Positions 2,067-5,810 of a DNA stretch of 64,000 bases are shown piece by piece (within the stretch, counting starts at the first letter, position 1; the number at the start of each line of letters is the position of its first letter). A program made the translations under genes and the position numbers. Location of the stretch: assembly GCF_001870225.1 (NCBI RefSeq), contig NZ_CP017675.1:200774-264773 (forward strand), in the 5' to 3' direction. The notes under the pieces are model-generated. The model searched no databases. It had not been told where the DNA came from and saw nothing but the letters and a program-made list of their open reading frames with translations. The stretch comes from Gloeomargarita lithophora Alchichica-D10 (GTDB lineage: Bacteria > Cyanobacteriota > Cyanobacteriia > Gloeomargaritales > Gloeomargaritaceae).

Positions 2067-3125
2067 ATGATTATTGTGATGCAACCCGGTGCGCCGGAAC
2101 TGGAAATTGAGCGCATTAGTGATGAACTCCGCACCTGGGGGTTGCATCCTGAAAAGATTGTTGGTCAGTACAAAGTCATTATTGGTTTGGTGGGGGAAAC
2201 GGCGGGTTTACTGCCGGAACGGATTCAGGAACTCAGCCCCTGGATTGATGAGGTGGTGCGGGTGGAACAGCCCTTCAAGCGGGTGAGTCGGGAGTTTCGC
2301 CACGGCCAACCGGGGGAAGTGACCATTGATACCCCCAACGGGGCGGTGGTCTTTGGGGAACAGCATCCCCTGGTGGTGGTGGCTGGTCCCTGCTCGGTGG
2401 AAAACGAGCAAATGATTATCGAGACGGCACTGCGGGTGAAGCAGGCGGGAGCCAAGTTTCTCCGGGGGGGTGCCTACAAGCCCCGCACTTCTCCCTATGC
2501 GTTCCAAGGACATGGGGAAAGTGCCCTAGAATTGTTGGCGGCGGCACGGGCGGCTTCGGGGCTGGGGATTATCACGGAAGTCATGGATACGGCGGATATT
2601 GAGAAAATTGCCCAGGTGGCTGATGTCCTGCAACTTGGGGCGCGCAATATGCAGAATTTCGCCCTGCTGAAAAAAATCGGGGCGCAAAACAAGCCGGTAC
2701 TGCTCAAGCGGGGGATGGCCGCCACGATTGAGGAATGGCTGATGGCCGCCGAGTACATTTTGGCCGGGGGCAACCCCAACGTCATCCTGTGCGAGCGGGG
2801 GATTCGTACCTTTGATAGCCGTTACACCCGCAACACCCTGGATTTATCGGTGATTCCCGTCCTGCGGAAACTCACCCACCTGCCGATTATGATTGACCCC
2901 AGCCACGGTACGGGTAAATCCGACTATGTACCAGCGATGGCGATGGCTGCTGTGGCCGCTGGCACCGATTCGCTGATGATTGAGGTGCATCCCAACCCAG
3001 CCAAAGCCCTCTCCGATGGCCCCCAATCCTTGACCCCGGAGCGGTTTGACCGTTTGATGCGTTCCGAATTGGCGGTGATTGCCCAGGCGGTGGGGCGCTG
3101 GCCGCAGGTGGCGGTGGGGGTTTAA
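2067..3125 (+). CDS. aroF: 3-deoxy-7-phosphoheptulonate synthase (DAHP synthase, AroF-type)
   Basis: Catalyses the first step of the shikimate pathway: phosphoenolpyruvate plus erythrose 4-phosphate gives DAHP. The 352 residues have an N-terminal ferredoxin-like regulatory domain (about 1-70, starting [10 protein letters not shown]) followed by the TIM-barrel KDPG-aldolase/DAHPS domain. Active-site stretches are visible: AGPCSVE at 106-112, [16 protein letters not shown] at 133-148, LKRGM and IDPSHGTGK in the second half. The N-terminal domain is typical of the type I-beta enzymes regulated by aromatic products. The stop is followed within a few bases by the boundary of the integron cassette, so the cassette may have removed or displaced the native terminator. 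Confidence 0.95.
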
Positions 3126-3249
3126 TTGCTAGTTAGGCTTTCACTATTCTAAAAATATCTTTGAGTTGAAAATCTTGGATTTTTAACATTGATTTTCAAG
3201 ATTGGTAACAAGCCTTTCTTTTACAACATTTTAGATAGGAATCAAAATC

Positions 3250-3510
3250 ATGGGAAAGAAATTTGAGTATAAGAATATTCGTTTTGACTTTAAAGGTCGA
3301 GGCATTACACAAGAAATTAATCTTCTTGATATCGATGGAAAACGTGTAAAAGGATGGTATACCAATACCGAAGAAGTGCCTACTCTTCCAGTATTATTGA
3401 ATGCTGCTGGATCTGATGGATGGGAACTTGTTTCACATAGTGTTAACCAAGATAACCAAGCTAATGGAGTGACATTTCACTATTTATACTTTAAGAGAGA
3501 AGTTGCCTAG
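3250..3510 (+). CDS. Cassette gene 1: small DUF4177-like protein
   Basis: Protein of 86 residues with a mixed beta/alpha pattern. The central DGWELVSHS motif, followed by a final hydrophobic strand (TFHYLYFKRE), recalls the DUF4177 family, whose function is unknown. No membrane helix, signal peptide or catalytic motif is visible. Base composition is much more AT-rich than the neighbouring chromosome, in line with its place inside the cassette. It starts 117 bases after the cassette boundary, leaving room for a promoter, and a purine-rich GATAGGA precedes the ATG. The stop overlaps the GTG of the next gene by one base, so the two are translated as a unit. Confidence 0.75.
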   Translation: MGKKFEYKNIRFDFKGRGITQEINLLDIDGKRVKGWYTNTEEVPTLPVLLNAAGSDGWELVSHSVNQDNQANGVTFHYLYFKREVA

Positions 3511-3722
3511 TGTCAGATTCTGAGCTTGATAAAATCATTGCTGCGACACGACAAAAGAGTGCTAAGAAAAAGCAAAACAATAAAAATACATCGCCATTTG
3601 TAATCGTATTAAGCGTTTTAGCCCTAGTTTTAGTAATAACAAAGAATCCATTTTTCTTATTCCTTATAGCATTAGTTATTTTTATTCTTGTAATAAGAGA
3701 ATCTATAGAATGGATGGGGTGA
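3510..3722 (+). CDS. Cassette gene 2: small two-helix membrane protein
   Basis: Protein of 70 residues, unrecognised. The first 25 residues are polar and Lys-rich (KKKQNNKN), followed by two hydrophobic segments at about 29-43 and 46-62 separated by KNPF, so it is probably a membrane hairpin with a basic cytosolic tail. The GTG start shares its first base with the last base of the preceding TAG. The stop codon lies within the first bases of a perfect 16-bp inverted repeat. Its coupling to the DUF4177-like gene suggests that the two act together. Nothing identifies the role, though small membrane proteins in cassettes are often of unknown or defensive function. Confidence 0.65.
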   Translation: MSDSELDKIIAATRQKSAKKKQNNKNTSPFVIVLSVLALVLVITKNPFFLFLIALVIFILVIRESIEWMG

Positions 3723-3756
3723 TAAACAGGCTCTAATCTTTTAGAGCCTGTTTATC
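3721..3756. terminator. Perfect 16-bp inverted repeat with 4-base loop
   Basis: The arms GATAAACAGGCTCTAA and TTAGAGCCTGTTTATC are exact reverse complements around a TCTT loop. The left arm includes the last two bases of the stop codon of cassette gene 2. No clear T-run follows, so this could be a factor-dependent terminator or a 3' mRNA-protecting hairpin rather than a classic intrinsic terminator. It lies between the cassette genes and the attC site. Confidence 0.7.
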
Positions 3757-3783
3757 ACTACGCTACCTCACAGCCCACTAAAA

Positions 3784-3870
3784 GCCTAACACTGCGTTGG
3801 AGCCGACCTTTCAAAAGTTGATCTGTAAAAGCTAAAGATTAAGTGTAGCGGCTCAACTAGACCGTTAGAC
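3784..3870 (+). other. attC recombination site of an integron cassette
   Basis: All canonical attC parts are present in order. Inverse core GCCTAAC (3784-3790, RYYYAAC); 5-base spacer; GTTGGAGCCG (3796-3805); 43-base centre; CGGCTCAAC (3849-3857); 6-base spacer TAGACC; core GTTAGAC (3864-3870, GTTRRRY). The two inner arms pair apart from one extra G in the left arm, the expected extrahelical base that selects the recombined strand. The spacer lengths of 5 and 6 match known attC sites. A short CACTTG...CAAGTG inverted repeat follows at 3871-3890. Confidence 0.88.
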
Positions 3871-3977
3871 CACTTGATCTTTGGCAAGTGAGCCATCGAA
3901 AAACTTCTGAATTTAATGTTGTAAAATAGGATAGAAATTACTCAATTAACGATTTAAATCGACTCACGGGGTATTTC

Positions 3978-4199
3978 ATGAAAACTTTGCTAGAGATCGA
4001 AGAAGCAATCCAACGTTTGCCAGAAAGTGATATTCGACAACTTTCAGGATGGCTTCAATCGCATCTGGATGAGGTGTGGGATCGTCAAATTGAGGCAGAT
4101 TTAGTGTCTGGGAAACTAGATCACTTAATTGCCCGCGCAGAAGCAGGCATATCCGCTAATAGAGTGAAGCATCTCGATGAAGTCCTTGACAACGCCTGA
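3978..4199 (+). CDS. Putative type II antitoxin
   Basis: Protein of 73 residues, mostly helical and acidic. It starts MKTLLEIEEAIQRLPESDIRQL and ends [19 protein letters not shown]. The pattern of a short N-terminal helical region and a C-terminal toxin-binding tail is that of small cyanobacterial antitoxins paired with RelE/ParE-like toxins. Its last 23 bases overlap the start of the downstream toxin-like gene, typical of such operons. GGGG lies just upstream of the ATG as a possible ribosome site. It sits directly after the attC core, and toxin-antitoxin pairs are common integron cargo, so it may be the remains of a second cassette. Confidence 0.7.
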   Translation: MKTLLEIEEAIQRLPESDIRQLSGWLQSHLDEVWDRQIEADLVSGKLDHLIARAEAGISANRVKHLDEVLDNA

Positions 4200-4467
4200 T
4201 TTCTGGAGAGCTTACGCAGAATTAACCCCAGATATGCGGGAGGAAGTACGGAGAGCGTACCAGCTTTGGCAAAACAATCCAATACATCCATCCTTGCACT
4301 TTAAGAAAGTAGGTAAGCATCTTTGGTCTGTCTGCGTAAGTAGTGGTTATCGAGCTTTAGCATTGAAAAAAGGTGATGACTACTACTCTGGTTCTCCCCC
4401 TGGACGCTCCCTACTCCCTTCAAAGCAGCAACGCCCAAACGATGACAGTCCCAAATTGCTATACTAG
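4177..4467 (+). CDS. RelE/ParE-like toxin with an aberrant, probably inactivated C-terminus
   Basis: Residues 1-68 follow the RelE/ParE-like toxin pattern: [16 protein letters not shown], a helical region, [13 protein letters not shown], then [19 protein letters not shown]. In this family the chain normally continues into a WFWIGxHxxYxRLL-type last strand. Here it instead reads into a Pro/Ser/Arg-rich tail of about 27 residues that does not look like the family. A TGGTTC (Trp-Phe) occurs at that point in another frame, so a frameshift or replacement of the 3' end is likely. The ORF ends near AATTGCTATA, which resembles the end of the CTATAG repeat family. The gene is therefore best viewed as a damaged toxin. 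Its antitoxin appears intact. Confidence 0.6.
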
Positions 4468-4490: not shown

Positions 4491-5810
4491 ATGCCATCCT
4501 CCGTCCGGCCTAAAGTGGCTTTTACCCACCTGGGATGCGAAAAAAATCGCATTGATACCGAGCATATGCTGGGCTTACTGGCAACGGCGGGTTATCGCAT
4601 AGATAGTGACCCAGAGACGGCGGATTATGTCATCGTCAATACCTGTAGTTTCATCGAAGCCGCCCGACAAGAATCGGTGCGTACCCTGGTAGAGCTGGCC
4701 GAAGCGGATAAAAAAATCGTGATCACCGGCTGTCTGGCACAACATTTCCAAGGGGAATTGCTGGCCGCTATCCCGGAGGCAGTGGCCTTGGTGGGCACGG
4801 GGGATTATCAGCACATTGTCCAAGTCATTGATGCGGTGGAACAGGGGCAAACTGTCCTCCAGGTCACCGAAAAACCCACCTACATTGCCGATGAAACGGT
4901 GCCCCGTTACCGAACTACCTGTGCCCCGGTGGCCTATTTACGGGTGGCGGAAGGGTGTGATTATCGTTGTGCGTTTTGTATCATCCCCCATCTGCGGGGT
5001 GACCAGCGTTCCCGCTCCATTGCCTCCATCGTCCGGGAAGCCCAGGAATTGGCCGACCAGGGGGTGCAGGAATTGATTCTTATCTCCCAAATTACCACCA
5101 ACTATGGGCTGGATTTGTACGGCAAACCCCGCTTGGCTGACTTGCTTTATGCCTTGGGGGATGTGTCCGTGCCGTGGATACGAGTGCATTACAGTTATCC
5201 CACCGGGTTGACCCCGGAGGTACTGCGAGCCTTTCGGGATGTCCCGAATGTATTGCCCTACATTGACCTACCGCTACAACATTCTCACCCGGAGGTTTTA
5301 CGCGCCATGAACCGGCCTTGGCAAAGGGAGGTCAATGACCGCCTGCTCGACCGAATCCGGGAAATGTTACCCGATGCCGTGATTCGGACGACGTTTATCG
5401 TCGGTTTTCCGGGGGAAACGGCTGACCATTTTGCCCATTTGGGGGATTTTGTGGAGCGACATCGGTTTGACCATGTGGGGGTGTTTCCCTTCTCGGCGGA
5501 AGCGGGGACTCCCGCTGCTACGCTGCCCAATCCGATGCCGGAAGCGGTCAAACGGCAACGCCAAAAAACCCTCATGCAAAAACAACAACCCATTTCTCTC
5601 GCCAAACACCAGCAGTATATTGACCGTACTATAGATGTACTAATTGAACAGGAAAATCCTCAAACGGGGGTCAAAATTGGCCGTTCAGCACGCTTTTCCC
5701 CCGAAGTGGATGGGCAGGTGTATGTAACCGGGGCGGCCCCATTGGGACGGCTGGTGCCGGTGAAAATTACGGCGGCGGCTGTGTATGATTTGGTGGGGGT
5801 GTCGGTTTGA
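4491..5810 (+). CDS. rimO: Ribosomal protein S12 methylthiotransferase RimO
   Basis: Radical-SAM enzyme that adds a methylthio group to a conserved Asp of ribosomal protein S12. The 439 residues show all three domains. The N-terminal MTTase domain binds the auxiliary [4Fe-4S] cluster through Cys16, Cys52 and Cys81 (LGCEKN, NTCSF, GCLAQ). The radical-SAM core has Cys156, Cys160 and Cys163 (CDYRCAFC). A C-terminal TRAM domain covers about 375-437. [11 protein letters not shown] near the start and the CAFCIIP context separate RimO from MiaB. It is convergent with alaS and the two stop codons directly abut. Confidence 0.95.

Follow-up and report, generated by a model that had tools for sequence, protein, structure and literature searches.

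An integron gene cassette behind aroF in the chromosome of Gloeomargarita lithophora and its probable origin by off-target integration

Integration of gene cassettes into bacterial genomes by way of attG sites was reportedly described by Loot et al. (2024, Nat Microbiol, doi 10.1038/s41564-023-01548-y), and the attG data are said, in a paper that cites this work, to be experimental and to come from E. coli. Single attC sites or clusters of attC sites that are not accompanied by an integron-integrase are referred to as SALIN and CALIN (PMC12690207, PMC9024848), and the origins proposed for CALIN include off-target insertion and genomic rearrangement (PMC8618304). A class of attC sites from the Cyanobacteria has also been described (Ghaly et al., 2021; PMC8352920). 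In the open-licence literature, we found no papers on integrons in Gloeomargarita.

We analyzed a 64-kb stretch (here called the window) that covers positions 200,774-264,773 of the chromosome of Gloeomargarita lithophora Alchichica-D10, which is a single contig of 3,049,282 bases. A preliminary description of the window had proposed that it contains a genuine integron gene cassette, located a few bases past the stop codon of aroF and with no integrase nearby. The features at this locus are as follows, with positions numbered from the start of the window.

2067-3125, + strand, aroF (DAHP synthase), the upstream host gene, intact (NCBIfam NF009933, E 7e-208)
3132-3138, + strand, left junction G^TTAGGC, the host G followed by the 5' end of the cassette
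3133-3864, + strand, cassette of 732 bp, as delimited by the junctions and the attC
3250-3510, + strand, cassette ORF1 of 86 aa, with weak similarity to DUF4177 and the "Sp36" family, under both cut-offs
3510-3722, + strand, cassette ORF2 of 70 aa, a small hydrophobic protein, its start overlapping the ORF1 stop by 1 nt
3718-3759, + strand, perfect 19-bp stem with a 4-nt loop, overlapping the ORF2 stop and located between ORF2 and the attC
3784-3870, + strand, attC (model R1, 60.9 bits, E 3.8e-14)
3784-3790, attC box R'' (GCCTAAC), followed by a 5-nt spacer
3796-3804, attC box L'' (GTTGGAGCC), with one extra G
3850-3857, attC box L' (GGCTCAAC), followed by a 6-nt spacer
3864-3870, attC box R' (GTTAGAC), with the crossover at G3864^T3865
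3865-4386, + strand, probably the 5' part of another cassette that has lost its attC, as suggested by the resemblance of its head and by a truncated toxin gene
3978-4199, + strand, antitoxin-like ORF of 73 aa, so called from its position before the toxin
4177-4467, + strand, ParE/RelE-like toxin ORF (ParE_like, E 0.02, under the cut-off)
4491-5810, + strand, rimO, the downstream host gene (TIGR01125, E 2e-167)

The attC was searched for with a covariance model of the R and L stems (R1), which was built from 17 aligned cyanobacterial attC sites, picked by a simple finder from the same genome and from other cyanobacteria, with the site at 3784-3870 left out. This site was the sole match across the 64 kb, and no Rfam family had a match in the window. 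Covariation is evident in the stems of R1, where 93.8% of the cells are paired as compared to 81.3% in shuffles, and two-sided changes number 33 as compared to 10.5. The site contains the R''-L''-L'-R' boxes, the extrahelical base and the paired stems of an attC; the canonical parts named in the preliminary description were all recovered, and the covariance search that it had proposed, with a model trained without the site, indicates that the pattern is not due to chance. Its other proposal, to fold the site as single-stranded DNA, gave a divided outcome: the R and L stems are present in the predicted bottom-strand fold, but the folding energy is unremarkable (z -1.34). The thermodynamic z-score was discarded as an attC test, since it is uninformative.

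The left edge of the cassette agrees with its right end. A 5' end of the form TTRRRY, complementary to the R'' of the same element, was found at 3132-3138, where GTTAGGC is the exact reverse complement of R'', so that the element is circularizable at G^TT; the complementarity of TTAGGC to the inverse core that had been pointed out earlier is exact. The insertion point lies 7 bp past the aroF stop codon. The earlier proposal that the segment at 3133-3864 is a genuine integron gene cassette without an integrase nearby is supported. No plasmid or phage copies of it were found. The structure predicted for ORF1 is of moderate confidence (pLDDT 75.6) and gave no convincing match in a comparison to the PDB. 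The hairpin at 3718-3759 is terminator-like, yet lacks a T tract and was missed by a terminator scan; the RNA fold of 3716-3790 has an energy of -32 kcal/mol, and no other copy of the palindrome was seen in the genome.

Relatives of ORF1 are 94% identical at the amino acid level in Coleofasciculaceae and Microcoleus records and 91% identical in another genome (G111). The leader, ORF1 and ORF2 also occur together, without an attC, in the metagenome-assembled genomes of Coleofasciculaceae SM2_1_6 and of a Microcoleus (loci L293 and L294), with a DNA identity of 82% for the unit and an amino acid identity of 63-67% for ORF2. Homology between the window and these loci begins within about 6 nt of the G^TT at 3132/3133, which provides independent support for the left edge of the cassette, and ends at the ORF2 stop codon, past which the cassette has new sequence and then the attC. 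The mutual homology of L293 and L294 continues past both of these points. At the position of the left GTT of the cassette, they carry GTTAAAT/ATTAAAC, and no attC was identified near any of the 22 relatives of ORF1 that were checked. The ORF1-ORF2 loci can be read in two ways, either as the kind of locus from which the cassette was made or as old cassettes minus their attC. It is conceivable, although we think it unlikely, that the cassette records the birth of a cassette, in which an attC inserted downstream recombined with an attG-like GTT upstream and host genes were lifted out. A 69-bp block with 93% identity (L293:4604-4672 and L294:463-531) differs between the two records in its position with respect to ORF1-ORF2, and the attC-less unit may thus also be mobile.

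The DNA that follows the attC begins at 3865 with TTAGAC-CACTTG, which resembles other cassette heads in the same genome. The homology of the toxin ORF at 4177-4467 stops at residue 70 (base 4386), after GDDYY, whereas intact homologues are 83-87 aa long and end GDDYYWFWIG.., so that the last ~15 residues of the toxin (WFWIGxHDEYExLL) are replaced. No family match above noise was obtained for the 73-aa ORF at 3978-4199. A toxin homologue with 70% identity (in G060) is flanked by attC sites, one directly after it and another one upstream. Three weaker homologues, encoded by the G. lithophora genome, are located 66-78 bp before attC sites. Because the toxin is truncated and its homologues precede attC sites, the anatomy of the segment suggests that a second, toxin-antitoxin cassette has probably lost its end and its attC beside rimO. 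The statement in the preliminary description that the cassette is not in an array thus holds with regard to the single attC, as in a SALIN (one R1 match in 64 kb and no intI nearby), but the truncated cassette-like segment implies that the locus may earlier have been a small array.

A search of the whole genome for intI and attC, another of the earlier suggestions, identified 46 attC sites with R1 at E<=0.01, of which 15 form an array on the + strand at 837.8-869.7 kb, beside two copies of intI, and 31 are located at 22 other places. The only strong matches to the IntI family are at 835 and 840 kb on the - strand, with weaker tyrosine-recombinase matches at 718 kb. These are the nearest visible intI copies to the window, which itself contains none, as had been noted before; the combination of intI and attI beside an attC, as in a complete integron, is absent from the aroF locus. 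The first cassette starts about 140 bp upstream of the start of the 840-kb intI, and about 140 bp from the intI start to the first cassette is the usual attI geometry. The 835-kb intI is truncated at the 5' end, where it is joined to the right half of an attC. The two copies (C1:835311-835607 and C1:839617-840006) are 95% identical across 302 visible bases, with profile positions 1-130 visible in copy 2 and 32-130 in copy 1, and with 414 and 447 nt masked. Both copies are probably truncated at the C-terminus, as far as can be judged from partly masked sequence: the readable DNA past the masks encodes no IntI C-terminus, and the masked stretches are not long enough to contain one. The first cassette by the truncated intI (C1:835634-837905, L005) encodes a Septu-type system (PtuA E 2e-166, PtuB E 3e-96; PADLOC). 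The suggestion that the window holds the last remnant of an integrase-less array finds no support, since the chromosome has an array of its own, accompanied by copies of intI, and about 30 scattered attC sites besides.

The scattered attC sites are mostly single, and at least six belong to cassettes with a defined left edge. Four or so of the matches are doubtful (796572, 816133, 1366794 and 2124179): the inverse core is odd at 1366794 and at 2124179, and the matches at C1:796572 and 816133 were rejected as cassettes because they share a near-identical downstream ORF (MIAAEVWGILMKLQRLL..) and may belong to another repeat family. Integration by IntI would be expected to leave, at the left edge of a cassette, the complement of its R''. 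Among the 29 scattered sites whose inverse core is canonical, 9 have a matching 5' heptamer within 1 kb upstream, as compared to 1.5 expected with the heptamers of other sites (maximum 5 in 5000 trials) and a mean of 2.4 (maximum 10) with permuted letters. No clear enrichment of the left heptamer was seen in three other genomes (G278, G396 and G284), where 6 of 37 sites had one against 3.0 expected.

Empty sites were identified for three of the scattered cassettes. The cassette at C1:1253255, which is 918 bp long and carries a gene for a PIN-domain toxin and a probable antitoxin gene, is located inside an IS transposase gene, for which an intact IS copy (C1:2189743) provides the empty site with the target GATG^TTCAAG. 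When TTATGC...attC...GCG is removed, the flanks are 97.0% identical to the IS copy over 570 bp with zero gaps, and the insertion has caused neither duplication nor loss at the target. The empty site for the cassette at 432198 is provided by a neighboring tandem copy in G. lithophora itself and also by G085, while the flanks of the cassette at 2174013 are contiguous in G085, G389 and G388. G^TT at the junctions is common to the scattered insertions examined. Toxin-antitoxin genes are frequent in the scattered cassettes (C1:1253255, 1478503, 1697394, 1347282 and 2812637), including PIN, Phd/YoeB, ParE-like and PemK/MazF-like types. By eye, the scattered cassettes also seem often to run in the same direction as the host gene that precedes them (aroF, murI, serA, katG and others), which may or may not exceed the operon background.

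We compared the aroF-rimO junction, as had also been proposed, to those of relatives. In none of the seven nearest genomes, six of the genus and one of the family, are the two genes adjacent; they lie at a distance from each other, and the comparison therefore yielded no empty-site counterpart. The gene upstream of aroF is conserved next to it across the genus, which is not the case for the downstream side. Within the genus, genomes with IntI have 46 (two intI copies), 26 (C-terminal part) and 12 (C-terminal part) attC sites, as compared to 5, 0, 0 and 0 in those without, and no attC was found at E<=0.01 in G386, G388 and G390. The attC counts in the genus follow the traces of IntI. Dispersed attC sites also occur in four other genomes (G387, G278, G284 and G396). 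In a sample of 386 cyanobacterial genomes (attC at E<=1e-5, IntI piece at E<=1e-30), attC sites were identified in 86 genomes and an IntI piece in 41, with both in 31 genomes, only attC in 55 and only IntI in 10 (Fisher p 9e-15, uncorrected for relatedness).

We consider it likely that the cassette arrived by off-target (attG-type) integration by an integron integrase and remains as a SALIN beside aroF. IntI, the presumed agent at this locus, would have inserted the cassette as a folded single-stranded attC at a non-integron G^TT behind aroF, and the cassette would then have stayed there as a single recognizable attC without an integrase. The toxin-antitoxin segment may have arrived as a neighboring cassette, and a later rearrangement could have cut it and brought rimO next to it; expression of the cassette genes might depend on read-through from aroF or on their own leader. 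Secondary-site insertion had been among the origins considered in the preliminary description, and by analogy the empty sites of the three siblings support it strongly, but there is no empty site at the aroF-rimO junction itself. Against off-target insertion stands that no intact integrase is visible in the genome, parts of which are masked. Because both visible copies look truncated, the cassette would probably have been inserted by the resident integrase at a time when it was still intact, or by a visiting integrase.

A different history, in which a piece of the resident array was moved to aroF by genome rearrangement, is one to which we give a minor share of credence. It would account for the truncated cassette-like segment next to the cassette, the genus is heavily rearranged around aroF and rimO, and rearrangement is one of the proposed origins of CALIN (PMC8618304). 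However, the clean G^TT junction in the 3' flank of an intact aroF is integrase-like, the siblings are inserted base-exactly in unique or IS DNA, and many rearrangements would be needed for 22 separate places. We regard it as very improbable that the gene pair was moved by another element, such as an insertion sequence, an intron or a genomic island, that happened to carry an attC: the pair does occur without an attC in two other cyanobacteria, but there is no transposase or intron gene at 3133-3870, no Rfam match, and no terminal repeats or target duplication were seen at the cassette ends, where the junctions are of the integron type. Least credible of all is a chance inverted repeat in ordinary DNA, a practically negligible option for which the unexceptional folding energy, taken alone, would leave room, but not the E-value from an independently trained model together with the matching left edge.

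The cassette resembles SALIN and CALIN in that one attC-bearing cassette is found without a nearby intI, and differs from them in that attC sites are scattered over about 22 places in the chromosome and that the siblings have empty sites at base level. It has the same type of attC (77-89 nt) as the resident array at C1:838-870 kb, whose cargo includes toxin-antitoxin and defence genes (Septu PtuA/PtuB), but the array adjoins the intI copies, whereas the cassette is located about 630 kb away. The attC is typical of the phylum, like the cyanobacterial class described in 2021 (PMC8352920), with membership judged by R1, a model built here.

Off-target cassette integration is so far known mainly from the laboratory, within the literature searched. 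This chromosome and, as judged by R1, several other cyanobacteria appear to hold natural scattered examples, with toxin-antitoxin cargo beside housekeeping genes. The scattered sites offer material for studying which attG sites are preferred in nature, how cassettes decay and possibly how they arise. As in the attG integration of Loot et al. (2024), to the extent that this work is represented in the citing paper, the cassette has been placed in chromosomal DNA that is neither attI nor attC; the insertions there are experimental and in E. coli, those here are natural and cyanobacterial, with only G^TT seen in common at their junctions. CALIN, SALIN and attG integration are already known; the unusual features here are how widely cassettes are dispersed in a single natural chromosome and the base-exact empty site.
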